Assembly (NCBI GenBank): GCA_030432595.1
Contig: JAUIGU010000015.1
Span: 1 to 64,000, forward strand
Length of the DNA stretch: 64,000 nt
Direction: 5' to 3'
Source of the DNA: Phycisphaerae bacterium
Lineage (GTDB): Bacteria > Planctomycetota > Phycisphaerae > Phycisphaerales > Phycisphaeraceae
The notes under the pieces are model-generated. The model saw only the letters and a list, made by a program, of their open reading frames with translations, was not told the DNA's origin and searched no databases. The position numbers and the translations under genes are program-made. Positions 2,777-55,867 of this stretch are shown here, in pieces. Each line of letters begins with the position of its first letter. Position 1 is the stretch's first letter.

Positions 2777-3424
2777 ATGGCCCGCGCCCCCCGCATCGTG
2801 CTCGGCATCTCCGGCGCCTCGGGCGCGCTCTACGCCGCCCGGACGACGCAACTGCTTGTGGAGGCCGGCGTCGAGACACACCTGGTCGTCTCGCCCCTGG
2901 GCCAACGCCTGCTGCGGGACGAACTGGGGATGGAAGGCCTGGATTTGGCCGTACTCGCCGGGCGCGACCCCGGCGCCGCGGCACCGGACAACCTCGTGCT
3001 CCACCACCACAAGGACGTGGGCGCGACCATCGCGTCCGGGTCGTTCCGCCACGACGGCATGGCGATCGTCCCGTGTTCGAGCAACTCGCTCTCGGCCGTC
3101 GCCACCGGGCAGCAGCAACACCTCCTGCACCGTGCTGCGCACGTCACGCTCAAGGAGGGCCGAACGCTGGTATTGGTCCACCGCGAGACCCCTCTTTCGC
3201 GCATTGACCTGACGAACCTGCTCGCGGCGCAGGAAGCCGGCGCGGTGATCCTGCCGGCCAACCCGGGGTTCTACATGCTGCCGCAGCGCGTGGAAGACCT
3301 GGTGGACTTCGTCGTCGGCCGGGTGCTGGACCACCTGGGCGTGGAGCACGACCTGTCCGTGCGTTGGCCGGGGCACATGCGCGCGGTGCGTGACGACGCC
3401 CGCGGTCCGGGGAGCGCTTCTTGA
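2777..3424 (+). CDS. ubiX: Flavin prenyltransferase UbiX
   Basis: This 215-residue flavoprotein makes the prenylated FMN cofactor used by UbiD-type decarboxylases. The N-terminus reads RIVLGISGASGALYA, the classic UbiX/Pad1 FMN-binding start. The central PCSSNSLSAVATG and the later VLVHRETPLS and ILPANPGFY segments match conserved UbiX blocks. The length is typical. The gene overlaps the following ubiA-family gene by 4 nt (TTGA), so the two are probably translationally coupled. Such a UbiX/UbiA pair is common in menaquinone synthesis, including the futalosine route. No other pathway gene is visible, so the pathway is an inference. Confidence 0.95.
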   Translation: MARAPRIVLGISGASGALYAARTTQLLVEAGVETHLVVSPLGQRLLRDELGMEGLDLAVLAGRDPGAAAPDNLVLHHHKDVGATIASGSFRHDGMAIVPCSSNSLSAVATGQQQHLLHRAAHVTLKEGRTLVLVHRETPLSRIDLTNLLAAQEAGAVILPANPGFYMLPQRVEDLVDFVVGRVLDHLGVEHDLSVRWPGHMRAVRDDARGPGSAS

Positions 3425-4338: not shown

Positions 4339-4346
4339 TGCCGCGT

Positions 4347-5159: not shown

Positions 5160-5343
5160 GAAATCGAAACGTCCTGCGTCCTGCGTGAATCGCGCGGTCT
5201 GATCGCGACGCCGTCCGTGTAAGCCCATTGTGATCGCTACGGCGGCCTGCGCCAAGCACGACGCGGAGAATTGGTGATGGGCCGTGGTCAGTCGGGATCG
5301 TGCGGCCGTGCACAGCCCCCGTGAAATGATCTTGCGGCCAATG

Positions 5344-5372
5344 AAAACCCCGCGGCGATCAGCCGCGGGGCT
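5344..5372 (-). terminator. Intrinsic terminator after the lamin-tail PEP-CTERM gene
   Basis: Read on the minus strand, the arm AGCCCCGCGG pairs with CCGCGGGGTT around a short loop and is followed by TTTTC. It lies 47 bases beyond the stop codon of the gene ending at 5419. It resembles the other strong GC-rich hairpins in the window. Confidence 0.75.
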
Positions 5373-5418
5373 ATGAAGCGTGTTTGAATGTCGGTCCGGA
5401 CTTTGATCAGTCGGATGA

Positions 5419-6114
5419 TCAGCCGTTGCGGCGACGCAGCATCACAAGACCACCCAGACCCAGCAGGGCCGCCGTGGCGGGCTCGGGGACGAAGTCGTGG
5501 GTGCCGGGGGTGGTGACGGCGACGTGGCCCGCGGCGTCGGCACCGTCGAGGGCGGCGGTGCCGGCGAAGGTCCACTCGCTGGCGGTGAAGGTGGCGTTGC
5601 CGGTCGTGACGGTGGAGTTGCGATAGCCGTAGCTGTCGGTGTAGTCCCACGGCTCGCCGTCACCGTTGACCCCGATGACGCCGACGATATCCACGAGCGT
5701 CGCGTCCGAGCCATCGCCGGTGGCCGCGCCCAGGAACAGGGCAACAACGTCGTCACCGTTGATGAACGAGCCGAGGTCGAAGTTGTCGGCGTCGAAGCCG
5801 TAGGTGTCGAAGAAGAATCCGACGCCGGGTCCATCGCTGTTTTCGTAAGAGATGACGTACGAGTCACCCGCGGCGAGCGTGCCGGACAGCACGGTCGATG
5901 CGCCACCGCCGAGGGTGGTGCCGCCGTTGTTGAAGTTGCCGATGCTGTACGCAGACAGATCGACCGACGAGCCGCCGGTGTTCGTCAGTTCGACAAACTT
6001 GGGCAGGCCACCGGGCAGGTCGCCGTCGAGGATCTCCGAGATGATCAGGTTCGCCGAAGCCGAACCCGTCATGCCCACGGCCGCGAGGCCAGCGATCAAC
6101 AACTGAGTCTTCAT
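5419..6114 (-). CDS. Lamin-tail-domain PEP-CTERM protein
   Basis: A 231-residue secreted protein. The start is supported by AAGGAG 8 nt upstream and by a short signal peptide (MKTQLLIAGLAAVGMTGSASA). Immediately after cleavage comes NLIISEILDGDL, then LPKFVELTNTGG and VDLSAYSIGNFNNGG, the hallmark of a lamin-tail domain (ISEI...EwVELyN...vdLsgy). This Ig-like fold is often found on secreted nucleases and surface proteins. The C-terminus FVPEPATAALLGLGGLVMLRRRNG is a textbook PEP-CTERM tail. No enzymatic domain is visible, so a structural or adhesive role is most likely (inference). A terminator hairpin follows the gene. Confidence 0.88.
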   Translation of the reverse strand: MKTQLLIAGLAAVGMTGSASANLIISEILDGDLPGGLPKFVELTNTGGSSVDLSAYSIGNFNNGGTTLGGGASTVLSGTLAAGDSYVISYENSDGPGVGFFFDTYGFDADNFDLGSFINGDDVVALFLGAATGDGSDATLVDIVGVIGVNGDGEPWDYTDSYGYRNSTVTTGNATFTASEWTFAGTAALDGADAAGHVAVTTPGTHDFVPEPATAALLGLGGLVMLRRRNG

Positions 6115-6274
6115 CTTTCCATCTCCTTCACGAGGGGTTTGCAGGGCTGTGTTTTGCGGCCGGGGAACTCACCAGCCACACGAATACCTTAACCGGGATC
6201 GCCGCGGGCGTCGAGCGTCCAGTCGGATGTTTACGGTTTTTTTACGTCCCAGCTACCGAAACCCTGCTTAAATA

Positions 6275-8923
<2,649 letters not shown>

Positions 8924-41101: not shown

Positions 41102-42982
41102 ATGACGCGGCGTGTTTGGTGCGACGCCGCATCGCGAAGGGACCGGGCCCGTCTTGGATGTGTTGTGGTGATTCAGTCCTCGTCAGTCGCGGATGCTGAT
41201 TCGGGTCCGGCCGGGAACGGTGCGGGCGGGCTCGGCGCTGCGCTGGGCCGGGTGCGGCTGGGTCAGCTGCTGATCGAAGACGGGGTGCTGGAAGCGGTCG
41301 AGCTGGACCGGGCGCTCGAGGCGCAGGACGCCGACCGGGGCGGCGCGTCGGCCATGAACGGCGACCGGCCGGCGCGGCTGGGCGAGGTGGTGCTGCGGCT
41401 GGGGTTGGCCGAGCCGACGGCGGTGCGGCGGGCGTTGTGCCGGCAGCGGGGGATCGATTTCGTGGATGTGGCGGAGGTGACGCCCGAGTCGGCGGCATTG
41501 AAGCTCTTGTCGCCGGAAGTGGTGACGAAACACACGGTCTTGCCGCTATCGGTGGTTGAGGGTGAGGGCGGGGCGTTGACACTGGCGATGGCGGACCCGC
41601 TGGACGCGTCGGTGCGGGAGGTGGTGCGGGCGGTGACGGGTCGGCCGGTGTCGGCGCGGCTGGCGGAGGCGGCGGCGCTGCGCGACGCGATCGGCCGGCA
41701 CTACGGCTCGCAGGCCGAGCGCATGATCGCGGACCTGGCCGGCGCGGATGCGCAGGGCGCGGCGTCGATCGACGAGGCCGCCGGCGATCTGGAAGCGCAT
41801 CTCCAGGAACTCGCGGCCGAGCCGACGGTCGTGAACCTCGTGAACCTGTTGATCCTCGAAGCGATCCAGGCGCGGGCGAGTGACGTGCACGTCGAGCCGT
41901 TCGAGCACCAGTTGCGGGTGAAGTACCGGATAGATGGTTTGCTGCACGAGGTGAAGCCGCCGCCCAAGCACCTGCAGGACGCGATCACGTCACGCATCAA
42001 GATCATGGCGGGGATGAACATCGCCGAGCGCTTCGTGCCGCAGGACGGGCACATCGACATGAAGACCCCGGGCGGGAAGGTGGACCTGCGCGTGGCGACG
42101 GCGCCGACGGTGTACGGGGAGTCGGTGGTGCTGCGCATCCTCGACGCGACGGCGGCGCTGTACACGCTCGATCACCTGGGGATGGACAAACCCCGCCTGG
42201 ACAGCCTGAAGAACCTGCTCGAGTTCCCGCACGGCGTGGTGCTGGTCACCGGGCCCACGGGCAGCGGCAAGACGACCACGCTCTACGCGGCGCTGCAGCA
42301 CATCTTCAGCCCGGCGCTGAAGATCATCACGATCGAAGACCCGGTGGAGTACCGCCTCGACGGCGTGAACCAGATCCCGGTGAACCGCAAGCGCGGGCTG
42401 ACCTTCGCGGACGGGCTGCGGGCGATCCTCCGGCAGGACCCCGACGTGGTGATGATCGGCGAGATCCGCGACCGCGAGACGGCGGACATCGCGATCCGTG
42501 CGGCGCTGACGGGGCACCTGGTGTTCTCGACGCTGCACACCAACGACGCGGCGGGCGCGGTGACGCGGCTGACGGACATGGGCGTCGAGCCGTTCCTGAT
42601 CGCGTCTTCGTTGCGGGGCGTGCTCGCCCAGCGGCTGGTGCGGAAGGTGTGCCCTGAGTGTCGGCGGGAGATGGTGCCGGACGAGGCGCTGATTCGACGG
42701 ATGGGGCACCGCGCGGAGGAGACGCGCAACGGCAGCGCGACGTGGTACGAGGGCGCGGGCTGCCGGGTCTGCCGGAACGTGGGGTACCGCGGGCGGATGG
42801 GCGTGTTCGAGCTGTTGGTGGTGGACGACGCGGTGCGCAGCGCGATCAATCGGCGGGAAGACGCGGGCTCGGTGCGCAAGGCGTTGGGGGCGGAGCACGT
42901 GACCATGTCCGAGGACGGCTACCGTAAGGCGGCGCAGGGGCAGACGACGCTGGACGAGGTGCTGCGCGTCACGCACGAGTGA
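41102..42982 (+). CDS. gspE: Type II secretion ATPase GspE
   Basis: A 626-residue secretion ATPase that powers pseudopilus assembly. The N-domain (residues 45-200) has RLGQLLIEDGVL and repeated GEVVLRLG/PLSVVE blocks. The ATPase part holds Walker A VTGPTGSGKTTTLYAAL, the Asp box IITIEDPVEYRLDG, Walker B PDVVMIGEIRDRETADIA and the His box TGHLVFSTLHTND. The zinc-binding Cys pairs CPECRR and CRVCRN are present. I kept the ATG at 41102 with GGAACGAG upstream. Two GTG codons 21-22 codons later, just before the family-like region, are alternatives. It is the first gene of the secretion operon. Confidence 0.94.
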   Translation: MTRRVWCDAASRRDRARLGCVVVIQSSSVADADSGPAGNGAGGLGAALGRVRLGQLLIEDGVLEAVELDRALEAQDADRGGASAMNGDRPARLGEVVLRLGLAEPTAVRRALCRQRGIDFVDVAEVTPESAALKLLSPEVVTKHTVLPLSVVEGEGGALTLAMADPLDASVREVVRAVTGRPVSARLAEAAALRDAIGRHYGSQAERMIADLAGADAQGAASIDEAAGDLEAHLQELAAEPTVVNLVNLLILEAIQARASDVHVEPFEHQLRVKYRIDGLLHEVKPPPKHLQDAITSRIKIMAGMNIAERFVPQDGHIDMKTPGGKVDLRVATAPTVYGESVVLRILDATAALYTLDHLGMDKPRLDSLKNLLEFPHGVVLVTGPTGSGKTTTLYAALQHIFSPALKIITIEDPVEYRLDGVNQIPVNRKRGLTFADGLRAILRQDPDVVMIGEIRDRETADIAIRAALTGHLVFSTLHTNDAAGAVTRLTDMGVEPFLIASSLRGVLAQRLVRKVCPECRREMVPDEALIRRMGHRAEETRNGSATWYEGAGCRVCRNVGYRGRMGVFELLVVDDAVRSAINRREDAGSVRKALGAEHVTMSEDGYRKAAQGQTTLDEVLRVTHE

Positions 42983-43002
42983 GGGTGAGCGACACGGGAG
43001 AC

Positions 43003-43025
43003 GCCCACGCCGTGACGGCGTGGGC
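43003..43025 (+). repeat. Palindrome in the gspE-gspF junction
   Basis: The 11-nt arm GCCCACGCCGT pairs exactly with its complement around a single central base. It lies 20 bases after the gspE stop and 75 bases before the gspF start. No T-run follows, so processing or stability is more likely than termination. Confidence 0.7.
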
Positions 43026-43099
43026 TTCGGGTGGCTGCATCGGGTTTGGTTGTTTTCACAAGAAGGGGTGGGCGGCGACGGGAAAGGAAGCGTCGAGGG

Positions 43100-44392
43100 T
43101 TGCCTCAGTTTGCGTACAAGGCCTTGACCCGGGACGGGGCGGCGCGGGACGGGAGCGTCTCGGCGGCGTCGCGCGCGGCGGCGGTGTCGCTGCTGGCCGA
43201 GCGCGGCGAGTTCGTGACGGAGATGATCGAGGCGGCGGCGGGGGGGGTGCGGGGTGACCAGAAGGGTGGAGGGGATACCAAGGGTTTCGAGAAGGCATCC
43301 GGGGCTTCGCGGGGCTCAGCCCACGGCTTAAAGGGTTTCAGTTTGCGCAGCGGGGTCAGTGCGCGGCAGCGGGTGGCGCTGCTGCGGCAGGTGTCGGTGG
43401 CGCTGGAGGCGGGGCTGACGCTGGTGGCGGCGCTGCGGGTGGTGGCGGATCAGGCCGGCACGCCGGCGTTGAAAACGATGGTGGAGGGGTTGATCGAGGA
43501 CGTGCAGCGCGGCGAGGCGTTGTCCGAGGCGATGCGTCGGGCGGGGTACGGGAAAGTGTTCAACGTGATGCAGGTCAGCATGGTCCGCGCGGGCGAGGCG
43601 GCGGGCGTGCTGGACGAGGTGATGGCGTCGTTGGCGAGTTTCGCGGAGCGGGACCTGGCGGTGCGGGAGAAGCTGCGGTCGGCGGCGATCTACCCGGTGA
43701 TCGTGCTGGTGCTGGCGTTGATCTCGATCGTGATCATTTTGACGTTCATCCTGCCGAGCATCATGGAGTCGCTGGAGGACACGGGCGCGGCGTTGCCTTT
43801 GCCGACGGTGATTTTGATGACCTCGAGCGATTTTTTACGCAGCCCGGCGGGGATCGGCGCGGCGCTGGCGGCGGTGCTGGGCGTGGTGTTGTTCTGGCGA
43901 TGGAAGAACACGCCCGAGGGCCGGCTCTCGGTGGACGGGTGGAAGTTGAAGGTGCCGGTGCTGGGCACGGCGCTGCGGCGGGTGGCGGTGGCACGGTTCG
44001 CGCGGGTGCTGGGCACGCTGACGGGCGCGGGGATCGGGATCGTGGAGGCGATGAAGATCGTGCGTGACACGCTGGGCAACGAGGTGCTGGCGCGTCGGGT
44101 GGACCACGCGGCCGAGGAGATCGTGCGCGGCCGAAGCATCGCTGAGCCGCTGGGGGAGGACGGCATGTTCCCGCAGCTGCTGGTGCAGGTCGTGTCGATG
44201 GGCGAGCGCACGGGCAAGCTGGATGCGCTCTTGATGCAGTTGGCGGACACGTACGAGCGCGAGACGGAGGTCGCGCTGGCGCGGGTGATGTCGGTGTTGC
44301 CGGCGGTGTTGATCCTTTGTTTGGCGGTGGTGGTGGCGTTTATTCTGGCGGCGGCGCTGCTGCCGTTGGTGAACATGAGTTTGAGCGGGTGA
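43100..44392 (+). CDS. gspF: Type II secretion inner-membrane platform protein GspF
   Basis: A 430-residue polytopic protein. I chose the TTG at 43100 because it starts LPQFAYKALTRDG, the normal GspF/PilC beginning (family: MPxFxYxAxxxxG), with GGAAAGGAAG a little upstream. Two T2SSF domains follow, each ending in a membrane helix (IYPVIVLVLALISIVIILTF; VLILCLAVVVAFILAAALLP), plus a middle helix. Landmarks are RQVSVALEAGLTLVAALRV and GERTGKLDALL. A low-complexity Gly/Ser/Lys insert of about 40 residues lies between the N-terminal part and the first domain. It looks inserted. Gene order E-F-G is canonical. Confidence 0.92.
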   Translation: MPQFAYKALTRDGAARDGSVSAASRAAAVSLLAERGEFVTEMIEAAAGGVRGDQKGGGDTKGFEKASGASRGSAHGLKGFSLRSGVSARQRVALLRQVSVALEAGLTLVAALRVVADQAGTPALKTMVEGLIEDVQRGEALSEAMRRAGYGKVFNVMQVSMVRAGEAAGVLDEVMASLASFAERDLAVREKLRSAAIYPVIVLVLALISIVIILTFILPSIMESLEDTGAALPLPTVILMTSSDFLRSPAGIGAALAAVLGVVLFWRWKNTPEGRLSVDGWKLKVPVLGTALRRVAVARFARVLGTLTGAGIGIVEAMKIVRDTLGNEVLARRVDHAAEEIVRGRSIAEPLGEDGMFPQLLVQVVSMGERTGKLDALLMQLADTYERETEVALARVMSVLPAVLILCLAVVVAFILAAALLPLVNMSLSG

Positions 44393-44450
44393 GTCGGTGG
44401 TTTCCGATTGTTGATTGATGATTTCCGATTTTTGATTTGGGAGCACGGTG

Positions 44451-44924
44451 ATGCAACGCAAAGACACACAACACAAACCGCGACCGGCTGGAGATCGACA
44501 GAAGGTGCGGCGTCGCAGCTTCCGGGGGCGGGGTTTTACGCTGATCGAGGTGATGGTGGTGGTGATCGTGATCGGGATTCTGGCGGCGCTGATTGCGCCA
44601 CGGTTCCTGGGTCGTGCGGAGCAGGCGAAGGCCGGCGTCGCGCGGAGCAACATCAAGCAGATCGAGTCGGAGATCAACATGTTCCAGCTCGACTACGGCC
44701 GGTACCCCGAGTCGCTGGACGAGCTGGTGACGCAGCCGCCGGACGTGCCGGACGACAAGTGGATGGCGCCGAACCTCAAGGCGAGCGACCTCGAAGACCC
44801 GTGGAACAACCCGTACGTGTACCGGTACCCGGGCAACCACGGGGTGTACGACCTGCTGAGCACGGGGGCGGACGGCGTCGAGGGCGGCGAGGGCGACGGG
44901 GCGGACGTGACGAGTTGGGAGTGA
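44451..44924 (+). CDS. gspG: Major pseudopilin GspG
   Basis: A 157-residue prepilin-like protein. The leader ends RGRG and the prepilin peptidase cleavage motif is GFTLIEVMVVVIVIGILAAL, with the essential Glu at mature position 5. The mature domain has the GspG hallmarks IKQIESEINMFQLDYGRYPESLDEL and a DPWNNPYVYRYPG block, and an acidic calcium-loop-like end (GADGVEGGEGDGADVTSW). The ATG at 44451 has GGGAG 8 nt upstream. It should form the pseudopilus rod. A terminator-like hairpin lies 52 bases after the stop. Confidence 0.95.
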   Translation: MQRKDTQHKPRPAGDRQKVRRRSFRGRGFTLIEVMVVVIVIGILAALIAPRFLGRAEQAKAGVARSNIKQIESEINMFQLDYGRYPESLDELVTQPPDVPDDKWMAPNLKASDLEDPWNNPYVYRYPGNHGVYDLLSTGADGVEGGEGDGADVTSWE

Positions 44925-44934
44925 TCTGGGATTG

Positions 44935-45594
44935 ATGCGCGGACGTGATCACACGCTGGATGTTGGTTGTTTGAATGCCCGGAGACGGCCGTCTCCGGGC
45001 TTTTGGGGGTGCTGCGCGGAACGGGGGTCGCGTCACGCGCGTGGGTTCACGCTTCTTGAGGTGATGGTGGTGATCATTGTCGCGGGGGTGTTGACGGCGA
45101 TGATCGTGCCGACGATCGCGGACCGGCGGGACAAGGCGCGGCTGCGTTCGGCGTCGCAGCAGTTGTGGCAGGCGGCGCGGTACACGCAGCAGCGCGCGGT
45201 GCTGCGTGGCGTGGACCACCGGCTGGTGTTGCTTCCGACGGGCGAGGGCTTGCCCGGCGACGGCGAAGGGCCCGGGTACCGCATCGAGTTTGTCGACGAC
45301 GAGGGGGAGCAGGGGTACGGCGTGGTGCGCAGCGGCGCGTACCGGCCGAGCCGGCTGCCCGAGGGCGTGGCGCTGGTGTCGGTGGAGATCCCCGGCGCCG
45401 AGCCGGGCGTGGGCGCGGAACAGATCATCCGCTTCACCGCGGCGGGCCGGGCGGACGCGGCGGCGGTCGTGCTGGCGGCGGCGGGGCGGGAGGAGATGCA
45501 CTCGGTGCTGGTTTCGCCGAACTCGGGCCGGGTGGAACGCGTCGAACTGCCGGTGGCGACGCCCCCCAACGACCGGGAGGACCTGGATGGCTGA
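44935..45594 (+). CDS. gspH: Minor pseudopilin, GspH-like
   Basis: A 219-residue prepilin. The cleavage motif is GFTLLEVMVVIIVAGVLTAM, with Glu at mature position 5. A GspH/FimT-type domain follows (RDKARLRSASQQLWQAARYTQQRAVLRG). The leader of about 38 residues is unusually long and contains ARRRPSPG, which is the translation of a 24-bp palindrome. There is no start codon between that palindrome and the cleavage site. The hairpin is therefore inside the coding sequence, if the gene is translated as drawn. Start could also be the TTG three bases earlier. It overlaps the next gene by 8 nt. Confidence 0.85.
   Translation: MRGRDHTLDVGCLNARRRPSPGFWGCCAERGSRHARGFTLLEVMVVIIVAGVLTAMIVPTIADRRDKARLRSASQQLWQAARYTQQRAVLRGVDHRLVLLPTGEGLPGDGEGPGYRIEFVDDEGEQGYGVVRSGAYRPSRLPEGVALVSVEIPGAEPGVGAEQIIRFTAAGRADAAAVVLAAAGREEMHSVLVSPNSGRVERVELPVATPPNDREDLDG
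44977..45004 (+). terminator. Terminator-like palindrome with T-run after gspG, inside the gspH leader
   Basis: The 12-nt arm GCCCGGAGACGG is followed at once by its exact complement, and then by TTTT at 45001-45004. It lies 52 bases beyond the gspG stop. As drawn it is also read in frame in gspH, which suggests partial transcription attenuation and not full termination. Confidence 0.65.
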
Positions 45595-46093
45595 GCGGAG
45601 CGACAACGTGGAATTGGTGGGTGTTCGGGCAAAGCCTCGCAAGCGGTTGCGAGGCGATGGGGGCGGGTTGCGCGATGGGCGTAGGTTGCGTGGCTTCACG
45701 ATCATCGAGTGTTTGTTGGCGGGGATGATCCTCGCGGCGTTCTCGGCGGTGCTCGCGCGGGGGATCGCGCAGGCCAGCACCGCGGTCGCCCGCGCCGACG
45801 ATGAACGGCTGGCGGCGCAGTACCTCGACGAGGTGCTCACGCGGATCGACCTCATCGGCCCGGCCGAGCTGAACTACGCCGGCCCGACGTCGGGCGTGCT
45901 AGACGAGCGGTTCTCGTGGGAAGCGACGATCACGCAGGAAGACCTTTCGTCGCTGTACCTCGTGGACGTGACGATCCGTTGGACGACGCCGCGCGGCGTG
46001 CGTTCCGTGGCCGGGCACACGTACCTGATGGACCCGCCGGGCTGGCGGAACACCGGGCTGCGCTGGGAAGATCTGGAGGTGCCCGGTGTTTGA
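45587..46093 (+). CDS. gspI: Minor pseudopilin, GspI-like
   Basis: A 168-residue prepilin. The signal is RGFTIIECLLAGMILAAFSA, with Glu at mature position 5, followed by a helix ARADDERLAAQYLDEVL as in GspI. The leader before it contains KPRKRLRG, the translation of a palindrome. The ATG overlaps the end of gspH by 8 nt (ATGGCTGA), and GGGAGG lies upstream. Its end overlaps gspJ by 8 nt. The short C-terminal domain (DVTIRWTTPRGVRSVAG) has GspI-like strands. Identity as I and not another minor pseudopilin rests mainly on gene order. Confidence 0.8.
   Translation: MAERSDNVELVGVRAKPRKRLRGDGGGLRDGRRLRGFTIIECLLAGMILAAFSAVLARGIAQASTAVARADDERLAAQYLDEVLTRIDLIGPAELNYAGPTSGVLDERFSWEATITQEDLSSLYLVDVTIRWTTPRGVRSVAGHTYLMDPPGWRNTGLRWEDLEVPGV
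45634..45655 (+). repeat. Palindrome in the gspI leader codons
   Basis: The 9-nt arm GCCTCGCAA pairs with TTGCGAGGC around a GCGG loop. Compared with the dnaA terminator palindrome (37740-37763) the stem carries a compensating C:G to T:A change. It is read in frame in the leader of the GspI-like protein. Confidence 0.65.
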
Positions 46094-46877
46094 CGCGCGG
46101 GACCTCCGACACGTTGGGCGCGCGGGCCGTTGGCCCGCGGCTAACCGCGCCACCTGCGCGTTTACGTTGATTGAGATGATGGTGGTGGTGTCGCTGATCG
46201 GGATCGTGGTGGCGGGCGGCGCGGCGATGATCGCGCAGGCGGGCAAGATGCGCCAGCGCACCGAGAGCGCCTCGACGCTGGACGCCGACGCGTACGCGGC
46301 GCTGGACGCCGTGGTGTTCGCGCTGCGCAACACGCACCGGCCGCGCGGCGCGGATGCGCAGAACGGCTGGTGGGTCTTCGAGGGCGCGGACGAAACGCTG
46401 GACGGCCGGCCCGCCGACCGGCTGCGCTTCTTCACGGTGGACCACCGCCCGGTCCGTCCGGATCAGCCCGAGGGCGACGTGCGCGAGGTCGCGTTCTCGC
46501 TGGAGCCCGGCGACGGCCCGGGCGGCCTTCCGTACCTGCGCCGGCGGACGGACCCGACGCTGCAGGTGGTGGAGACGTTGCTGGGCGGCGGGGGCGTGGC
46601 GGACCGCGTGGCGGAGAACGTGATCGCGTTCGACATCGAGTACTTCGACGGCCTGATGTGGCAGATCGAGTGGCCGGCGTCGTTGCAGCAGGTGCCGACA
46701 GCGGTGCGCGTCCGCGTCGCGGTCAGCCAGGTCGGCGACGGGACGACGTCCCCGCGGGTCGTTTCCCATTCACGGCTGATCCACCTGCCGCACTGGCCGA
46801 CGCTGCGCGACGACACGGGCGTGGCGACCGAGGGCACGGAAGACCAAGACGGCGGCGACGCGGGGGGTGGCGCGTGA
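46086..46877 (+). CDS. gspJ: Minor pseudopilin, GspJ-like
   Basis: A 263-residue prepilin. The cleavage region reads CAFTLIEMMVVVSLIGIVVA, so Ala replaces the usual Gly at -1. Glu at mature position 5 is kept. The C-terminal part is large and beta-rich (RLRFFTVDHRP, VREVAFSLEPGD, AENVIAFDIEYFDGLMW), as in GspJ. The GTG at 46086 overlaps gspI by 8 nt. The leader contains GRAGRWPAAN, the translation of a hairpin element. The Gly-to-Ala change at the cleavage site is tolerated by some prepilin peptidases. The end overlaps gspK by 4 nt. Confidence 0.85.
   Translation: MFDARDLRHVGRAGRWPAANRATCAFTLIEMMVVVSLIGIVVAGGAAMIAQAGKMRQRTESASTLDADAYAALDAVVFALRNTHRPRGADAQNGWWVFEGADETLDGRPADRLRFFTVDHRPVRPDQPEGDVREVAFSLEPGDGPGGLPYLRRRTDPTLQVVETLLGGGGVADRVAENVIAFDIEYFDGLMWQIEWPASLQQVPTAVRVRVAVSQVGDGTTSPRVVSHSRLIHLPHWPTLRDDTGVATEGTEDQDGGDAGGGA
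46121..46139 (+). repeat. Hairpin element (CCGTTGG core) in the gspJ leader codons
   Basis: CGCGGGCC pairs with GGCCCGCG around the loop GTT. Two more copies of the same CC-GTT-GG core with changed stems lie at 54589-54642. All are read through as leader-peptide codons. Confidence 0.65.
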
Positions 46878-48196
46878 GGTGTACGGCGTCCGACGCTCAC
46901 CGCAGGCATCGCCGACGCGGCGCCGTGCTGATCGTGGTGCTATGGCTGTTGATGGTGCTGGGGTTTGTGGTGCTGGGGCTGAACCGTTCGACGCAGTTGT
47001 TGCAGGCGCGGTCGCGCGGGGCGTTGGCGCAGGTGCAGGCCCGGTGGGTGGCGCGGGCCGGCGTCGAGCGGGCGTTCGAGCGGCTGGACTATGACCTGAC
47101 CGCGTACGACTGGTCGGGCGACGAGTGGTACGACGACCCGGGGATGTTCGACGCGGTCGAGTTGGCGGACGGCTTCATGTTCTGGGTCACGGCGCCGGTG
47201 AAGGAAGGCGACCCCGACGACGCGGCGCGGTTCGGGCTGGACGACGAGTCGTCGCGCATGACCGTCAACGCGTACGGCAACGCGGCGCTCACACGCCTGC
47301 TCGAGAACCTCAACAGCGAGGCCAACGCGCAAACGATCATCGACTGGCGTGACGGCAACAGCGACCAGCCGCCCGGCGGCGCGGAGGCGACGTACTACGC
47401 GGACCTGCGCTACCCCTACGACATCGCCAATGCCCCGTTCCGCACGCACCGCGAGCTGATGCTGGTCAAGGGGATCACGCCCGAGCTGTTCTTCGGCGAG
47501 GACACGAACCGCAACGGCCGACTCGACTTCAACGAAAACGACGGCGACCGCCTCGCCCCCGCGGACGACAGCGACGGCACGCTGAACCGCGGGCTGGCCG
47601 GCGTGACCAGCGTGTACGCCTACCGGCTCAACCAGACGATGACCGGCACGCCGCCGCTGCAGTTCGACAACATCAACGCGTCGCAGTTGCAGACGCGTTT
47701 TTTCTTCTCCGACGCCCTGGCCGAAGCCGCGGCGGACCGCATGGAGGGTCAGGACGACATCTTCCGCCTGGTCGGGCTGCGCGGCAACGGCGAGGCGGAG
47801 GACGGCGAGATCGACGAGATCGATTTCGAGTGGGTCGCGAACCACTACGAAGACTTCACCGACGAGGAGGACGAGGTGATCGCCGGCCGGGTGAACATCA
47901 ACACGGCGCGGCGGGCGGTGCTCGAAGCGCTGCCGCAGTTGCCGGACGAGGCGGTGAGCGACATCCTGGCGGCCCGGGAGCAGGGCACGGGGTTCACGCG
48001 CATCGGCGGGCTGTTCACGAGCAACATCCTGGACGAGGACGAGTTCCGCCGGGTGGCCCCGCGGGTGACGGTGCGTTCCAATGTGTTCCGGGTGCTCAGC
48101 CGGGGCGTCGCGCCCGGCGGCGGGTCGGTGACCGTCGAAGCGGTGATCGACCGCGGCGGGACGCGCCCGGTAGTCCTTTACTGGCATGAGAGGTAA
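46874..48196 (+). CDS. gspK: Minor pseudopilin GspK
   Basis: A 440-residue protein. Start is GTG at 46874, overlapping the gspJ stop (GTGA). The N-terminus has RRGAVLIVVLWLLMVLGFVV, which like other GspK proteins lacks the conserved Glu at mature position 5. QARWVARAGVERAFERLDYD follows. The large helical domain includes two helix-hairpin-like stretches, with RVNINTARRAVLEALPQLPDE and ILAAREQGTGFTRIGGLF close to the C-terminus, typical of T2SSK. GspK caps the pseudopilus tip with GspI and GspJ. The long insert with DTNRNGRLDFNENDGDRL looks like a calcium-binding loop. Confidence 0.9.
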   Translation: MRCTASDAHRRHRRRGAVLIVVLWLLMVLGFVVLGLNRSTQLLQARSRGALAQVQARWVARAGVERAFERLDYDLTAYDWSGDEWYDDPGMFDAVELADGFMFWVTAPVKEGDPDDAARFGLDDESSRMTVNAYGNAALTRLLENLNSEANAQTIIDWRDGNSDQPPGGAEATYYADLRYPYDIANAPFRTHRELMLVKGITPELFFGEDTNRNGRLDFNENDGDRLAPADDSDGTLNRGLAGVTSVYAYRLNQTMTGTPPLQFDNINASQLQTRFFFSDALAEAAADRMEGQDDIFRLVGLRGNGEAEDGEIDEIDFEWVANHYEDFTDEEDEVIAGRVNINTARRAVLEALPQLPDEAVSDILAAREQGTGFTRIGGLFTSNILDEDEFRRVAPRVTVRSNVFRVLSRGVAPGGGSVTVEAVIDRGGTRPVVLYWHER

Positions 48197-49925
48197 GGCG
48201 TTGCGGATCGGACGGAAACATCACGGCTCGACGGACGGCGTGCTGGGCCTGGCCCACGCCGCCGGCGCGTGGGCGCTGGTCGCGCTCGAAGGGCGCGACG
48301 ACGATGCGCCGCGCGAGGTGCACCACGCCCGCGCCGACGCGGGCTACGACGCGCTCGACACGGTGTGGGCGCGGCTGACGTCGGGGCTGGACGAACGGCA
48401 GAAGCGCTGGCCGATCGCGCTGGCGCTGCCGACGGGGCGCACTCTGCACCGCCGGATCGAACTGCCCGACGCGGACGCGGAGACCACGGCGCAGCTGGTG
48501 GCGGTGCGGGCGGAGGCGTGGCTGCCCGGGCACGGCGGCGAGGTGTTGTACGGGTGGGAAGGCCCCGACGAGCGCGGTGCCGCCGGCCGCGCGCCCGGGC
48601 GGTGGGTCACGGCCGTGCCGCGCGACGCGGTCGCGCCGGTCGAAGCGGCGCTAAGCCGGCTGGGCGGCGCAGCGGGCGTGTTGTCGTACGCGGCGTCGGA
48701 CGCCACGGCTTGGTCAGCCGGGCTGGACGCGCGGGGGACGACGCTGCTGGTCGCGCCGGGCGCGACGCAGACGGCGGCGGTGTTGACCGACGGTTCGCGG
48801 CTGCTGGCCGTGGCGAACGTGGACGGCACGCCGACCGAATCACCGTCGGTCTGGCTCGCCGACCTGGAGGACGCGCTGCTGACGATGCGTGGCGAGCCGG
48901 GCGTGGGCGGCAACGGGGCCTGGCCGGTGACGTGGGCGGGCGCCGGGGTGAACGACCGCGAGACGGGCGCGTGGGCCGAGGCATTGGGGTTGCGTCATCT
49001 GAAAGTTGTGAACGCCTCGCCGGATCAATGCCTGGCGCGGGGCGCGGCGCGGGCGGCGCTTGGCGCGACGTGGCCGACGGTGGTGATGGACGACCCCGCG
49101 GCGCGGAACGCGGTCAAGCCGGTCTCGGTGAAGGCGTGGGTCGCGGCGGGCGTGGCGTTGGCGGCGGCGCTGGGCTTGTGGGCGTGGAGCGACTTGAACG
49201 CGGCCGCGGCGATCGAGGCGGCGCGGGACCAGCACCCCACGCTGCGGCAAGAGCAGGCCGAGCTCACCCGGCAACTGAGTCTGTACGAGTTCCTTGAGAA
49301 GCGCCCGCCGACCGTGTTGGCCATGCTCGACGAGTTCACCGACAAGGCGAGCGGCTTCAACTTCAAGGTCATGCACTACGACGCGGACGGCGACCTGGAG
49401 CTGACCGGCGTGCTCAACTCGGCGAACGCGATCGGCACGTTCGTCTCCGAGCTTTCGCAGATGCGCACGCTCGACTCAGCGCAGCTCCGCAGCCAGAAGA
49501 ACGAAGGCCGGGACCAGGTGGCTTACGAGATCGTGGCCAAGCCGTCGACGCGGTTCTTCGAGGCGTTCGTGCCGGCGCCCCGCCCCGCGGCGCAGGCCGA
49601 CGCGGGGGACACGAAGTCGGACCCGGAGGACGGGGCGTCGGTGGCCGCGAACGCGGGCGAGCCGGCACTCCCGACGGCGCAATCGACGCCCGACGCCGCG
49701 GCATCTGAAGATGAGCCGGACGCCCCGAGCGAAACGGTGGAGACCGCCGTGACGTCAAGCCCCGCCGCCACGCCCGCGTCGGCCGAACCCGCGGGCACGG
49801 CGTCCGCGCCCACGATTCAGTTTGATGGCGAATTGAATCTTCAGAACGGCGAGCTGAGTTTGCAGGGCGGGGAGTTGAACTTTCAGGAAGGCGAACTGAG
49901 TCTCCCGAACGGAGTGGCACCGTGA
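48186..49925 (+). CDS. GspL/PilM-PilN-like assembly protein with C-terminal GEL repeats
   Basis: A 579-residue inner-membrane protein. Residues 1-310 form an actin-like cytoplasmic domain of the PilM/GspL type (RWPIALALPTGRTLHRRIELP, LVAVRAEAWLPG, TLLVAPGATQTAAVL). A membrane helix at residues 318-336 (AWVAAGVALAAALGLWAWS) leads to a coiled-coil and a ferredoxin-like PilN/GspL periplasmic domain (ELTGVLNSANAIGTFVSEL). A long Ala/Asp/Pro linker follows. The last 30 residues are four copies of a 7-residue unit of the form xGEL(N/S)(L/F)Q, not known from GspL. It overlaps gspK by 11 nt and the next gene by 4 nt. Confidence 0.85.
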   Translation: MRGKALRIGRKHHGSTDGVLGLAHAAGAWALVALEGRDDDAPREVHHARADAGYDALDTVWARLTSGLDERQKRWPIALALPTGRTLHRRIELPDADAETTAQLVAVRAEAWLPGHGGEVLYGWEGPDERGAAGRAPGRWVTAVPRDAVAPVEAALSRLGGAAGVLSYAASDATAWSAGLDARGTTLLVAPGATQTAAVLTDGSRLLAVANVDGTPTESPSVWLADLEDALLTMRGEPGVGGNGAWPVTWAGAGVNDRETGAWAEALGLRHLKVVNASPDQCLARGAARAALGATWPTVVMDDPAARNAVKPVSVKAWVAAGVALAAALGLWAWSDLNAAAAIEAARDQHPTLRQEQAELTRQLSLYEFLEKRPPTVLAMLDEFTDKASGFNFKVMHYDADGDLELTGVLNSANAIGTFVSELSQMRTLDSAQLRSQKNEGRDQVAYEIVAKPSTRFFEAFVPAPRPAAQADAGDTKSDPEDGASVAANAGEPALPTAQSTPDAAASEDEPDAPSETVETAVTSSPAATPASAEPAGTASAPTIQFDGELNLQNGELSLQGGELNFQEGELSLPNGVAP

Positions 49926-50476
49926 CGACCCGTGAGAAACGCACCGTGTTCATCGGGCTGGGCGTGGTCGTCGTGGCCGTGCTGCTCAACCTCGTGCTGC
50001 GCCCGGGCCTGGACGCGTGGCAGGCGGCGCGCGGCACGATCGCGCAACACGAACTACAGCTTGAAAACCTCGAAGGCCAACTCGCCGATCGCGACATCAA
50101 GCGCCGGCAACTCGCACAGAAGTACGGCCCGGCGGTGTCGAAACCGCTGGTGACCGTGTCCGAAGCGCGCGTCGCGTTCCCCGAGGCGGTGCAGAACGCG
50201 CTGAAGCGCGGCGGCCTGGGCGTCTCGACGGTGACGCTGCAGAACGTGCGGCGGGTGCGCGAGGTGCCGGGCGTATCGTTGGTGTCGTTGCGCGTCGAGG
50301 GCGGCACGCAGGGCAAGCAACTGGCGGACGTGCTCGCGTCGCTGCGGGCCAGCGAGGTGCTCGCGCTGGTGGAGGACCTGCGGATCGAGCGCGGCGACGG
50401 CGGCGGGCCCGACGGCGCGCCGTACACGCTGAGCTTCGTGCTCTCGACGCCGGCCTTGACGGAGGACACACCATGA
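49922..50476 (+). CDS. GspM/PilO-like assembly protein
   Basis: A 184-residue membrane protein. One N-terminal helix (TVFIGLGVVVVAVLLNLVLRP) is followed by a coiled-coil (IAQHELQLENLEGQLADRDIKRR) and a small alpha/beta domain (GLGVSTVTLQNVRRV, VSLVSLRVEGG), the layout of GspM and PilO. It would dimerise with the GspL-like protein in the inner-membrane platform. GTG start overlaps the preceding stop (GTGA), and its own stop overlaps the next ATG. Assignment rests on topology and gene order. Confidence 0.8.
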   Translation: MTTREKRTVFIGLGVVVVAVLLNLVLRPGLDAWQAARGTIAQHELQLENLEGQLADRDIKRRQLAQKYGPAVSKPLVTVSEARVAFPEAVQNALKRGGLGVSTVTLQNVRRVREVPGVSLVSLRVEGGTQGKQLADVLASLRASEVLALVEDLRIERGDGGGPDGAPYTLSFVLSTPALTEDTP

Positions 50477-51294
50477 ACCGCAAGCTCCCCCCCTGGACCG
50501 GCCGGGCGTTGCACGTGGCGCTGTGCGTCGCCGCGGCGGCGGTGGTGTTGCTGTCGGGGACGCGCTGGCTGTCCGCCGGCCAGGCCGAGTCCCGGCTGGA
50601 CGACGTGACCGCGCGGCTGACGGACGACGTCGAAACCTCGGACCCCGACGCGGCAGCGAACGCGGAAAACGATGACGCCAACACCCCCGGTGCCGAAGAC
50701 GGGCCGGGCGAGCGTCGTGAGCGCCGTGGGCGGCGCGGCGGTCGGGACGGCGGCGACGCCGGCGGGCTGCCCGACGACGACCCGGGCAAGGCCGCCGCCC
50801 AGCGCATCAACGAGCGCTACGCGTTCCACTCCCGGCCGCCGGAGCGCTTCCGCGAGATCCGCGGCGTGCTGGGCGACCAGGTGTTGTTCACGCACGGCGG
50901 CGCCAAGGGCGTGGGCGAGAGCTTTGACGGTGCCGAGGTGATCGAGGTCGGCGGCGACTGGGTCAAACTCAAACACAACGACGAAGAGATCATCGTCGGC
51001 GTCACCGGCGGGCAAGGCAGCTACGGCAACGCCCCGCGGCGGCCCCGACGCGACCGCACCGACAACCAGGAACCCGACGCGGGCCCCGCCGTGGCCCAGG
51101 AAGCACCGGCGGAAACGCCCCGCGCCCGGTCGGGCCAGATCACCCGCGATGACATCGACCTGTCCAAGATCGCCGCCAAGTTCGGCGTGCCGCTCGAGAT
51201 GCTCGAAGAGCGGTTTAACGCCATGTCGGACGACGAGTTCGCGCGTAGCCTCGAAGAGGCCGGCGACGAGGTCTACGAGTTTCTCAAAGACTGA
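50473..51294 (+). CDS. GspC/PilP-like periplasmic connector
   Basis: A 273-residue protein with an N-terminal helix (ALHVALCVAAAAVVLLSGTRW) and a long disordered acidic/Arg-Gly linker. A small beta-domain follows (FREIRGVLGDQVLFTHGGAKGV, VIEVGGDWVKLKHNDEEIIVGV), which resembles the homology region of GspC or PilP that contacts the secretin. The tail (RDDIDLSKIAAKFGVPLEMLEERF) is helical. It lies between the GspM-like gene and gspD, the usual place for a connector in PilMNOPQ-type order. The match to GspC is weak, so this is provisional. Confidence 0.65.
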   Translation: MNRKLPPWTGRALHVALCVAAAAVVLLSGTRWLSAGQAESRLDDVTARLTDDVETSDPDAAANAENDDANTPGAEDGPGERRERRGRRGGRDGGDAGGLPDDDPGKAAAQRINERYAFHSRPPERFREIRGVLGDQVLFTHGGAKGVGESFDGAEVIEVGGDWVKLKHNDEEIIVGVTGGQGSYGNAPRRPRRDRTDNQEPDAGPAVAQEAPAETPRARSGQITRDDIDLSKIAAKFGVPLEMLEERFNAMSDDEFARSLEEAGDEVYEFLKD

Positions 51295-51336
51295 TCCCCG
51301 CGGGCGACCGCGGGCTTCCCCTTTCGGAGTTGCATC

Positions 51337-54300
51337 TTGCTTAGTTTCACCACGACGACTGGTTCCCGGCCACGCTGGTTCATCGCGACGCTCGCCGCGG
51401 CCCTGTGGTTGCTGGTGGTCGCGCCGGGTTTGCGCGCCGACGAGGGCGACGTGGCGGCTGCGCCCCCGAACGCCGAATCGCCGGATACACCGGACGAAAA
51501 CGCCGACGGCGAAGGAGAGGCGGCGGGCGAGGAAGGCGAAGACGCCGAGGACGAGCTCGTCTCCGTCTCCTTCAACGACGCGCGGCTGAACGAGGTCGCG
51601 CGGTTCTTCATGGAGCGGCTCAACAAGCCGGTGCTCATCGACAACGAGGTCAACGACACGAAGATCTCGATCATGTCCCGCGACAAGATGACCGAGGCCG
51701 AGGCGTTCGAGCTGATCGGCACGGCGTTGCGGCAGCAGGGCGTGTTCATGGTCGAGAACGCGCGCGACCTGCAGTTCGTTCCGGTCGAACAGATCGGCAA
51801 GATCAACCGCCGGCTCGTGCCCGCCGACCAGGCCGTCGACACCGTCGAGAACCAGGCCGAGGTCGTCGACAAGGTGTTCCAGCTCAAGCACTACAACGCC
51901 GAACGCATGCGCGAGGTCATCACGCCGATGCTGCCGGAGTATGCGATCGTGCTGTCGGACCCCAACACCGGCCGGCTCATCGTCACCGACGCCGCCGCCA
52001 ACCTCCGCCGCATCGAGGACACCATCGCGCGCCTCGACGTTCCCCAGGCCAACCAGACCGTCGAGAAGATCATCCCCATCAAGCACGGCGACGCCAGCGA
52101 GATCGTCTCCATGCTGCGCATCATCATCGCCGGCTCGATCGGCGAGGACGCCGAGGCCCTCATCCAGGGCAACAACCGCAACAACCGGAACCGCCGCAAC
52201 CAGCAGGACTCCGGACCCAACCTCATCTTCGTCGAGCGCGACGACGCCCCGATCCTGCTCCAGCCCGACCTGACGCGCAACTGGATCATCGCCGTCGCGC
52301 CGCCGGCGATCATGGCCCTGATCGAACGCTGGATAGATGAACTCGACGTCGAGAAGCAGGAGCAGGACCCGTACCTGCTCATCGACATCAAACACGCAGA
52401 CATCACCGAGGTCGCGCAGCAGCTCACCGAGGCCGTCGCCGCCATGCCCGAGGACGACGTCCGCAATACCGTCCGCATCATCCCGTTCCCCAAGTCCGGG
52501 CAGCTCCTGGTGTACGGCTCGCAGCGCGGGCGCAACCTGGTCCGCTCCCTGCTCAACCAGCTCGATGTCGAGTCGTCACGCTACCGCATCATCGAGGAGA
52601 TCCCGCTCAAACACGACTCGGCCGAGAACGTGAAAAACAAGATCGACGAGCTGTTTGGCGAGGGCTCCTCGTCGGGCTCGGGCTTCCCGTACTACATCTA
52701 CACCAGCCGTCGACCCAACAACGTTGAGGAGGACGTGAAAGTCACCGCCGACACGCAGCGCAACAGCGTGACGATCATGACCGACCCGGGGCGGATGCAG
52801 CGGATCAAGGAGCTGATCGCCGAACAGTGGGACCTGCCCATCGATCTGGAGGCGGTGAAGCCGAAGGTCTACGAGCTGGACTACATCGACCCGGTGCAGC
52901 TGCAGACCGTGCTCGAGGAGATGTTCAACACCACCACCACGCGGACGACCGGCGATTGGTTCGACCAGACGACCGAGTCGAGCAACCCGGTTGGTCGGCT
53001 GTTCGGGCAGTTCAGTTTCCAGGCGCTGCGCGGCTCGAACAAGCTGATCGTGTCGAGCCAGAGCCAGGCGAACTACGTGGTGATCGACCGGCTGATCGAG
53101 GACCTGGACCGCCCGCAGGTCGCGGGCCTGCCGGTGGTGATCGAGCTCAAGCACGCCAACGCGGAGGACCTTGCCGAGCAGCTCAACGCGATGTTCAGCG
53201 AGCCGAACACCCCCGCGTCGATCCGCCGGACGCCGCGCGGGCTCAGCGACGCGCTGCGCAACGCCGCGTCCAGCCGCAGCGCCCAGAACAACAACCAGGG
53301 CAACAACAACAACCAGGGCCCCGGCGGCGGCGGCGGCAACAACAACCAGGGCGGCGACCCGAACCTGCTCAACTTCTGGTGGTCGCAGTCCAACCCGCCC
53401 GCCGACGAACAGCCCATCTCCAGCCTGATCGGCAAGCCGCGCTTCGTGCCCATCAGCCGACGCAACGCGCTGGCCTTCCTCGCGCCTAACGCCTACAACG
53501 AGCCGCTCACCGACCTGATCAACCGGCTCGACCAGCCGGGCTCGCAGGTCATGATCCGCGCCGTCATCACCGAGATCGAGCACAACGACGAGACCACCCT
53601 GGGCGTCCGCCTCGCCTCCGACCCGTCCATCCTCAGCGACTCGCGCCTGGGCGACCAGGCCATCGGCGGCTCGGCGAACGCGACCTTTTCCGAGGTGTTC
53701 GGCAGCGGGCGCGGCACGTTCGACGCCGGGCTCAACCTCAACGTCCTGCTCCAACTGCTCATCCGCGAGTTCAACCTCCAGATCATCAACGAGCCCCGGC
53801 TCTACACCGCCGACAACCAGGAGGCCCACTTCTTCGACGGCCAGGACGTCCCCGTCATCACCGGCGACCAGTCCAGCCGGCAGGACGCCGACACCTTCAA
53901 CCGCCAGTTCGACTACCAGTCGGTCGGGACCCGGCTGCACGTCCGGCCGCACATCACCGAGTCCGGCGAGATCGACCTGGAGATCAACCTCGAGCTCTCG
54001 CGCATCGAGTCCAACGACACGGTGTTCGGCAACTTCATCTTCAACCGCCGCGAGACCACCACGCACGTCACCCTTAACGACGGGCAGACCGTCGTGATCT
54101 CCGGCATCGTCCGGCAGGAAGACTTCGACGACGTACGCAAGCTGCCGCTGCTGGGCGACATCCCGCTGGTCGGCGGGCTGTTTCGTTCGACCGACAAGGG
54201 CGTGCGCAACCGCGAGGTGATCGCGTTCATCACGCCGGTCATCGTCAACCCCGCCACCGCCGAGGCCGAAGCGATCAGCGACCGCAACCGGGCGTGGCTG

Positions 54301-54540
54301 GACGAGATCCGCGGCAGCATGGACACCGACGGCGAAGACACCACGACCACACCCGAGCGCGACCCGCTCAAGCCCGGCACCGTCGAGCCGCAGGAACACG
54401 ACCCACCACAGGATCAGGGCGTCGATACCGACGACGGCGACCTGGAAGCAGCGGACGGCGAAGCCGCGATGTCCGACGCCGACGCGGAACCCGAGGACGC
54501 CGTGGAACGCACGCCGGCCGGCGCCGTGGAGCGGATGTGA
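51337..54540 (+). CDS. gspD: Enlarged type II secretin GspD
   Basis: A 1067-residue outer-membrane secretin, far longer than the usual 650-710. TTG start at 51337 has CGGAG upstream and a signal peptide (FIATLAAALWLLVVAPGLRA). An acidic linker follows, then N0 (residues 73-152, SVSFNDARLNEVARFFMERL). Next come six N1-like modules at about 177-237, 241-338, 345-411, 416-500, 508-593 and 598-732, each marked by a strand-helix phrase such as VFQLKHYNAERMREV, IIPIKHGDASEIVSML or VIELKHANAEDLAEQL. The secretin barrel is at 735-970 (VPVITGD, VGTRLHVRPHI, LPLLGDIPLVGGLFR). Canonical GspD has three N1-type modules. Asn-rich inserts occur at 278-290 and 650-672. The acidic C-terminal tail could be the site for a pilotin. 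Confidence 0.95.
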   Translation: MLSFTTTTGSRPRWFIATLAAALWLLVVAPGLRADEGDVAAAPPNAESPDTPDENADGEGEAAGEEGEDAEDELVSVSFNDARLNEVARFFMERLNKPVLIDNEVNDTKISIMSRDKMTEAEAFELIGTALRQQGVFMVENARDLQFVPVEQIGKINRRLVPADQAVDTVENQAEVVDKVFQLKHYNAERMREVITPMLPEYAIVLSDPNTGRLIVTDAAANLRRIEDTIARLDVPQANQTVEKIIPIKHGDASEIVSMLRIIIAGSIGEDAEALIQGNNRNNRNRRNQQDSGPNLIFVERDDAPILLQPDLTRNWIIAVAPPAIMALIERWIDELDVEKQEQDPYLLIDIKHADITEVAQQLTEAVAAMPEDDVRNTVRIIPFPKSGQLLVYGSQRGRNLVRSLLNQLDVESSRYRIIEEIPLKHDSAENVKNKIDELFGEGSSSGSGFPYYIYTSRRPNNVEEDVKVTADTQRNSVTIMTDPGRMQRIKELIAEQWDLPIDLEAVKPKVYELDYIDPVQLQTVLEEMFNTTTTRTTGDWFDQTTESSNPVGRLFGQFSFQALRGSNKLIVSSQSQANYVVIDRLIEDLDRPQVAGLPVVIELKHANAEDLAEQLNAMFSEPNTPASIRRTPRGLSDALRNAASSRSAQNNNQGNNNNQGPGGGGGNNNQGGDPNLLNFWWSQSNPPADEQPISSLIGKPRFVPISRRNALAFLAPNAYNEPLTDLINRLDQPGSQVMIRAVITEIEHNDETTLGVRLASDPSILSDSRLGDQAIGGSANATFSEVFGSGRGTFDAGLNLNVLLQLLIREFNLQIINEPRLYTADNQEAHFFDGQDVPVITGDQSSRQDADTFNRQFDYQSVGTRLHVRPHITESGEIDLEINLELSRIESNDTVFGNFIFNRRETTTHVTLNDGQTVVISGIVRQEDFDDVRKLPLLGDIPLVGGLFRSTDKGVRNREVIAFITPVIVNPATAEAEAISDRNRAWLDEIRGSMDTDGEDTTTTPERDPLKPGTVEPQEHDPPQDQGVDTDDGDLEAADGEAAMSDADAEPEDAVERTPAGAVERM
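53280..53360 (+). repeat. Asn/Gly tandem repeats inside gspD
   Basis: The unit AACAACAACCAGGGC recurs three times with a GGC run between copies. It codes for NNNQG repeats and a poly-Gly tract in the sixth N1-like module (residues 650-672). The length may vary by slippage between strains (inference). Confidence 0.7.
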
Positions 54541-54544
54541 CGCG

Positions 54545-55867
54545 GTGTCGATCATGTTGTCGAAGTCATTCGTTGAGTTTCTCGTAGCCGCAGCCCAACG
54601 GGCTGCGCGCCGCGTGGCGTGCGCGCGGTCCGTTGGACCGCGTCTATGGGGATCATTCTGCTTCTTGGTGCTTATTGCGGGTTGTCGATCCGGGCCGTCG
54701 CAGCCGTGGGGAGAGCAACCGGTGGAAGCGGTCGCCATTGAAGCGCCCGACACCTCTGGGTCCAACGCGGCGATCCCGCCCGGGTGGTCCGGCGCGGTGA
54801 CGGCGGTGGGCGCGGTGCATTCGGCGGTGCCGCACGGCGGCGCGGAGTTGCCGGTGGTCTCGCCGGACGGCCGGTGGATCGCGTACTTCGACCACGCGGA
54901 CGAGACGGTGCGCCCGACGTCCGATTCGCTGATCTCGGGGCGCGGGTTGGAGGGCGTGTCGCTGTGGGTGCGTCGGCTCGACGAGGCCGGCGGCGCGCGG
55001 CCGGCGGCGCTGGAGGGCGCGTGCTGGCCGAGTTGGGCGGGGGATGCGTCGGCGCTTTTTTTCGTGACCTACGACGCGTCGGGGCGGTGCTACCTCGGGC
55101 GGTTCGACGTGGCCAGCGGGGCGGTGCAGCGCAAGGCGGTCGGGCTGCGGCACATGCTTCAGGCCGCGGCGAACCACGACGGGTCGGCGGTGGCGGTGGT
55201 GGGCTACGCGAACGTGCCGGACCAGTCCGCGGTGTTCGTGGTGGACTGGGCGGCGGCGGCTGTGGAGCCCGTGCCGGCGGTGGGCGTCGGGGCGCAGGTG
55301 TGCCCGGCGTGGGCGTCGGGGCGCGACCTGTTGTTTGTCGCGTTGGCGGACGCGGACGGCGAAGGCGAGACGGGGACGGCGTCGCTCTGCCGGTGGCGGG
55401 CGGGCGCACCGACGAACGGGCCGCCGCGGGTCGTGTCGACTTTGGAACTGCCCACGCGGATGGCCGAGGCGGTGGCGATGCAGCAGGGGTTGCCGACGAT
55501 GTTCAGCCCCGACCGCGGCGCGTGGATGGCGCGCGACGCGTACGGGGTGACGCGCATCGTGGAGCTGGCGTCCGCGGGGGCGGTGCCGCTGCCCGGCGAC
55601 GCCGCGGCGGCCGCGTGGTGGGACCCGCCGTGGGTCGTGGTCGGCACCGCGAACAAGCTCGAACTGATCGACACGGATCCGTCGGTGTACCTGTCGGCCG
55701 ACATCGACCGCGCCGCGCCGCTGCCGGTGCGATTGCGTCTGCTGTCCGGGCGCTGGGCACCGCGCTTGGCCGACCCGCAGCGCGGCACGATGGTCCTGGT
55801 CGGCCAGGGTGAAGACCCCGACCGGCTGGCGGTGTATCAGTTGTGGGTGGTCGTCGCAGACGAGTGA
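54545..55867 (+). CDS. Beta-propeller lipoprotein at the end of the secretion operon
   Basis: A 440-residue lipoprotein with a clear lipobox (FLVLIAGC). The mature part has TolB/WD40-like blades: VVSPDGRWIAYFDHADE, ACWPSWAGDASALFFVTYD, AANHDGSAVAVVGYANV and AWASGRDLLFVALADADG. The GTG at 54545 lies 5 bases after the gspD stop. No start codon after the two leader palindromes would leave a full signal peptide, so they must be in the coding sequence. It might act as a pilotin or a substrate-binding or assembly factor, but that is only inferred from position. Leader: residues 16-36 are palindrome-derived. Confidence 0.75.
   Translation: MSIMLSKSFVEFLVAAAQRAARRVACARSVGPRLWGSFCFLVLIAGCRSGPSQPWGEQPVEAVAIEAPDTSGSNAAIPPGWSGAVTAVGAVHSAVPHGGAELPVVSPDGRWIAYFDHADETVRPTSDSLISGRGLEGVSLWVRRLDEAGGARPAALEGACWPSWAGDASALFFVTYDASGRCYLGRFDVASGAVQRKAVGLRHMLQAAANHDGSAVAVVGYANVPDQSAVFVVDWAAAAVEPVPAVGVGAQVCPAWASGRDLLFVALADADGEGETGTASLCRWRAGAPTNGPPRVVSTLELPTRMAEAVAMQQGLPTMFSPDRGAWMARDAYGVTRIVELASAGAVPLPGDAAAAAWWDPPWVVVGTANKLELIDTDPSVYLSADIDRAAPLPVRLRLLSGRWAPRLADPQRGTMVLVGQGEDPDRLAVYQLWVVVADE
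54589..54642 (+). repeat. Two CCGTTGG-core hairpins in a lipoprotein leader
   Basis: The first, 54589-54607, pairs CGCAGCCC with GGGCTGCG around AAC. The second, 54624-54642, pairs CGCGGTCC with GGACCGCG around GTT. On opposite strands they share the CC-GTT-GG core with the hairpin at 46121-46139, while the stem bases change in matched pairs. Confidence 0.7.

Follow-up and report, generated by a model that had tools for sequence, protein, structure and literature searches.

The closest described counterparts of the secretin treated here are the canonical GspD proteins of the type II secretion system (T2SS), i.e., those of E. coli, Klebsiella (PulD), Pseudomonas (XcpQ) and Vibrio (EpsD). They share with it an N0 domain, N1-type modules, a barrel and a T2SS gene cluster, but have three N1-type modules instead of six, and its inserts are longer than theirs. 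The PilQ of Thermus thermophilus (N0–N5) is comparable in its lengthened stack of N-modules and its ring pairs, but is a type IV pilus/DNA uptake secretin with modules N1 to N5, whereas our GspD lies in a T2SS cluster (PMC5745081). The length of Thermus PilQ has been explained by the width of the periplasm (PMC5745081), and the periplasm of planctomycetes can be greatly enlarged (PMC5394234). In the literature covered (subscription journals and preprints excluded), we found neither a paper joining type II secretion, GspD and planctomycetes nor a description of the giant secretins presented below.

Architecture of the window GspD and of its gene cluster

The window, i.e., the whole stretch of DNA analysed (64,000 nucleotides from a Phycisphaerae bacterium), encodes a GspD of 1067 residues (Table 1), read from a TTG start with a GGAG 7 bases upstream and beginning with a signal-peptide-like N-terminus (a hydrophobic stretch near the start). 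This ORF passes the NCBIfam equivalog model for GspD (TIGR02517: 432 bits, cut-off 351.35), and a Pfam scan, whose models were built independently of the present analysis, recovers the GspD N0 domain (PF21305: 34.7 bits, cut-off 27), six Secretin_N stretches and the Secretin barrel (PF00263: 151.7 bits, cut-off 27.5; residues 809–970). In a genome-wide PF03958 search, all six Secretin_N stretches are significant one by one and five of them exceed the Pfam cut-off, the exception being N5 (24.1 vs. 28.2 bits). A custom module HMM, partly circular as modules of the window were among its seeds, places them at residues 179–236, 244–338, 349–411, 422–501, 510–593 and 601–734, with long low-complexity inserts within N2, N4, N5 and N6. 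The same Secretin_N test, applied as a control to the GspD of E. coli K-12, yields three modules, and the canonical N0–N3 architecture is thus not the one observed here. On both counts the first-pass annotation was correct: it had read N0 plus six modules, on which the Pfam scan, the genome-wide search and the module HMM agree, and had taken three as the canonical number; its modules 2 to 5 all match PF03958, N5 doing so under the cut-off. Six modules are also present in all four near orthologs (approximately 58–73% identity). The product is a T2SS secretin GspD with N0 and six modules. An identity as PilQ was ruled out (TIGR02515: 173.5 bits, cut-off 284.35; gene located in a T2SS cluster), as was a frame or assembly artefact (ORF intact, close orthologs available).

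Structure prediction gave the order beta-alpha-beta-beta-alpha for 6/6 modules in an AlphaFold2 model of residues 70–735 (mean pLDDT 58; module cores about 65–78). The N0–N3 part of this model aligns best with the N-domains of XcpQ/GspD (Z about 10), and for N4 the alignment is with a type III secretin (Z 8.8), while the assignment of N5 and N6 is based on HMM matches and strand–helix order. The full-length model is poor (pLDDT 44); both models are of low confidence overall and silent on ring stacking.

Table 1. Coordinates of gspD, its domains and its companion genes in the window, and of two neighbouring ORFs (locus L164) in another Phycisphaerae genome, G166
Feature	Position	Strand	Basis or remarks
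gspD, T2SS secretin, N0 + six N1-type modules + barrel	51337..54540	+	TIGR02517, Pfam
signal-peptide-like N-terminus	51337..51438	+	hydrophobic stretch; TTG start with GGAG upstream
N0 domain	51568..51762	+	PF21305 E 1.6e-8, residues 78-142; N0 structures align
module N1	51871..52050	+	PF03958 E 3.6e-13
module N2, N/R-rich insert	52066..52359	+	PF03958 E 7.7e-8
module N3	52378..52578	+	PF03958 E 3.1e-9
module N4	52597..52839	+	PF03958 E 7.3e-8; module HMM
module N5	52864..53118	+	PF03958 E 1.7e-4; HMM E 7.9e-16; strand-helix order
module N6, adjoins barrel, N/Q/G-rich insert	53137..53547	+	PF03958 E 2.0e-8
secretin barrel domain	53761..54246	+	PF00263 E 1.9e-44
gspE	41102..42982	+	PF00437 above cut-off; TIGR02533 594.6 bits, cut-off 630
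gspF	43031..44392	+	PF00482 above cut-off; TIGR02120 E 1e-93, under cut-off
pseudopilins gspG, H, I, J	44448..46877	+	model or sequence
gspK	46370..48196	+	NF037980 E 6e-30, under cut-off; T2SSK_1st
gspL-like	48186..49925	+	position, size, hydrophobic helix; order kept in orthologous loci
gspM	49922..50476	+	NF040576 E 1e-12, under cut-off
candidate GspC-like protein, 273 aa	50473..51294	+	gene position; hydrophobic helix, linker, conserved small block
G166 upstream ORF, 2792 aa	L164 6437-14812	-	signal-peptide-like start, N0-like stretch (by eye), 22 modules, no barrel
G166 downstream ORF, 1748 aa	L164 1030-6273	-	own signal-peptide-like start, 14 modules, barrel

The gene is the last of a GspE-F-G-H-I-J-K-L-M-(C-like)-D cluster (41102–54540), in which the companions from gspE to gspM follow in order (41102–50476), E, F, G–J, K and M being identified by model or sequence and L by position; several of the NCBIfam matches score under their own cut-offs. 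The same gene order is kept at orthologous T2SS loci. For the gspL-like gene, NCBIfam and Pfam return no family match. The C-like protein, which has a single hydrophobic helix and is conserved in orthologs, matches no family of Pfam or NCBIfam, and profile searches of the PDB gave nothing convincing; it is a candidate GspC, the protein whose HR domain is the expected partner of N0, by position only, and in this respect the system differs from the canonical T2SS, its putative GspC being unrecognisable by family models. The sole PDB matches of this protein, to ribosomal L21 (E 0.29 or worse), were taken as chance. Directly after gspD comes a gene for a lipoprotein-like product of 440 aa with weak matches to TolB/WD40 propellers (54545–55867, +).

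We consider it likely that the window GspD is an outer-membrane secretin of the T2SS, with a periplasmic vestibule of six N1-type modules rather than three; its predicted role is that of a channel secreting folded proteins. If solved secretins are a guide, each module would contribute one ring to the oligomer, and six rings stacked on N0 would increase the distance that the vestibule covers from the inner-membrane assembly to the barrel gate. The length of this vestibule may be tuned to the machine (reach of the pseudopilus, size of the substrate or spacing of the gate) and not to the width of the periplasm alone. The first-pass annotation had likewise proposed that each extra module could add a ring: the surplus itself, six against three, is established, while the rings are proposed by analogy, Thermus PilQ indicating that extra modules can form additional stacked rings (PMC5745081).

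Module number among window-type GspDs

Module counts were obtained from phylum- and class-wide secretin searches. Six is the usual number for window-type GspD across Phycisphaerae, being found in the family of the window and in many other families of the class, and also in three genomes of other planctomycete families. Since six is usual across the class, the window gene is no outlier: it is a typical representative of a family of six-module GspDs that we did not find described. In the barrel tree, a branch with strong support sets the window-type GspDs apart as one group, and across relatives each module of the window has its highest score against the module at the orthologous position.

Where the number differs between these relatives, it differs by pairs of modules. 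In three families of the order of the window (f2, f77 and f78), 19 out of 19 counted GspDs have four modules, and their order is N1-N4-N5-N6 in the five scored, i.e., the N2-N3 pair is absent (for one four-module GspD, L145, the assignments of N1 and N5 are ties). Conversely, the GspD of locus L047 carries N2-N3 twice before N4-N5-N6 (at least 7 modules, the sequence being clipped by the contig end), and that of locus L136 (genome G417, 1647–7925, +) reads (N1-N2)x6-N3-N4-N5-N6, i.e., 16 modules, whose strong period of two was reached by 0/300 permutations. Judging from these sequences, the module number of window-type GspD appears to change in pairs, which fits the tight N0N1 and N2N3 ring pairs of Thermus PilQ (PMC5745081). 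The occurrence of six modules in the outgroup favours a loss in the four-module families, even if the N2 of the outgroup is not clearly equivalent to that of the window.

Such a distribution might also be produced by neutral drift, with unequal crossing-over altering a length that is not selected. The wide range of module numbers and the duplicated pairs of L136 and L047 are what drift would yield, but within lineages the number holds steady (at six in many families and at four in three that share an order), a stability to be read with the qualification that the modules within a single protein are well diverged. We regard drift as quite improbable.

Giant secretins of Phycisphaerae

Searching 298 Phycisphaerae genomes with the barrel of one giant secretin as query, we found secretin-bearing open frames of more than 3000 aa in at least 56 of them (56 being the count among the matches listed), including single-contig genomes. 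Modules were counted by HMM in 23 giants from 23 genomes (L042–L045 and L116–L134; 3369–6169 aa), 22 of which are complete frames, the last (L118, 48 modules) being open at its 5' end. These giants share with the window GspD the N-type modules, the barrel and, where checked, T2SS-like operons, but differ by their 32–63 modules per chain and by forming one separate group in the barrel tree. Pfam alone finds 42 and 44 modules in two giants, with an N0 match in one of the two. Their operons look T2SS-like in the four genomes checked: matches upstream of the giant are to E, F, G, H and K in order in G111 and G155, to F, G and K in G436, and to E and G in G331. In a sample of 294 genomes from the phylum, with scoring confined to the eight best candidates of each genome, frames of more than 2000 aa occur only in Phycisphaerae among the matches listed. 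The secretin search of the window's genome found no giant, and the period of two was not found as a general trait of giants, being strong only in L136 among the proteins tested.

In one genome, G166 (family f89), the modules are divided between two neighbouring ORFs, 163 bases apart (Table 1). A frameshift seems improbable, as the downstream ORF has a signal-like start of its own; this split was read in that genome alone. The barrel frames of other f89 genomes measure roughly 1100–1765 aa, and those of a few f88 and f84 genomes 1654–1752 aa. The upstream protein of G166, with modules but no barrel, and the low-complexity inserts of the window GspD both lend some weight to the idea that the extra modules do not build a rigid longer tube, but serve as repeats for binding substrates, peptidoglycan or other T2SS parts, or hang as flexible arms. 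While the modules could indeed behave so, the absence or doubling of whole pairs and the one-to-one orthology of the modules fit a structural stack, and we hold this alternative to be unlikely.

Module number and the width of the periplasm

The genome of the window harbours a second T2SS-like cluster (contig C16), in which E, F, G, H, I, J and K follow in order and precede a secretin with three modules; in this region (L161, G000:C16:44000-62000), the genes between K and D have no match to the L, M and C-like genes of the window. The same genome also encodes a 966-aa secretin (L162, 5902–8799, -) that has a single module and, at its C-terminus, a long acidic tail. Elsewhere in the class, three genomes (G002, G034 and G095) each combine a four-module GspD with a giant of about 50 modules, and a fourth (G259) one secretin of 4 modules and another of 50. 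Secretins that differ widely in module number thus share a single envelope, which means that width alone cannot set the number. Moreover, related channels within Phycisphaerae range from 4 to more than 60 modules, which indicates a number evolvable per machine rather than a simple measure of envelope width.

These observations bear on the cause proposed by the first-pass annotation, i.e., that the wide periplasm of planctomycetes would call for a longer channel, here of six rings, if the inner membrane is to be reached. Thermus PilQ offers a precedent, its six N-terminal rings crossing most of a wide periplasm (PMC5745081), and great enlargement of the periplasm does occur in planctomycetes (PMC5394234). 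However, three- and six-module secretins belong to two T2SS-like clusters of a single cell, 4- and 50-module secretins coexist in other genomes, and orthologous GspDs of the same order make do with four modules. In addition, tomography of P. limnophila, a planctomycete of another class, places the inner membrane close to the wall at the crateriform complexes, with invaginations elsewhere (PMC5394234). Our literature search returned no periplasm width for any member of the Phycisphaerae. The argument from periplasm width is weak, and we doubt strongly that it explains the six modules.

Returning to a vestibule whose length would be tuned to the machine, we tentatively extend this reading to the class, at somewhat less than even confidence: ring number in Phycisphaerae may be an evolvable length setting, with paired changes within a single T2SS family (4, 6, at least 7 and 16 modules) and 32–63 modules in a separate T2SS-like family, whose periplasmic tubes would exceed the length of any described secretin many times over and, in one genome, would be shared between two exported proteins. 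We know of no secretin structure that the giants, if assembled as rings, would not far exceed.

The pairwise change and the giant relatives are a more interesting result than the window gene itself. Because one cell encodes secretins of very different module number, periplasm width and channel length are separable by experiment, and what sets the reach of the T2SS and what the N-rings do become open to experiment, the pairwise differences amounting to a natural deletion/duplication series of one ring pair. As for the giants, if they assemble as rings, they raise a new question about envelope machines.
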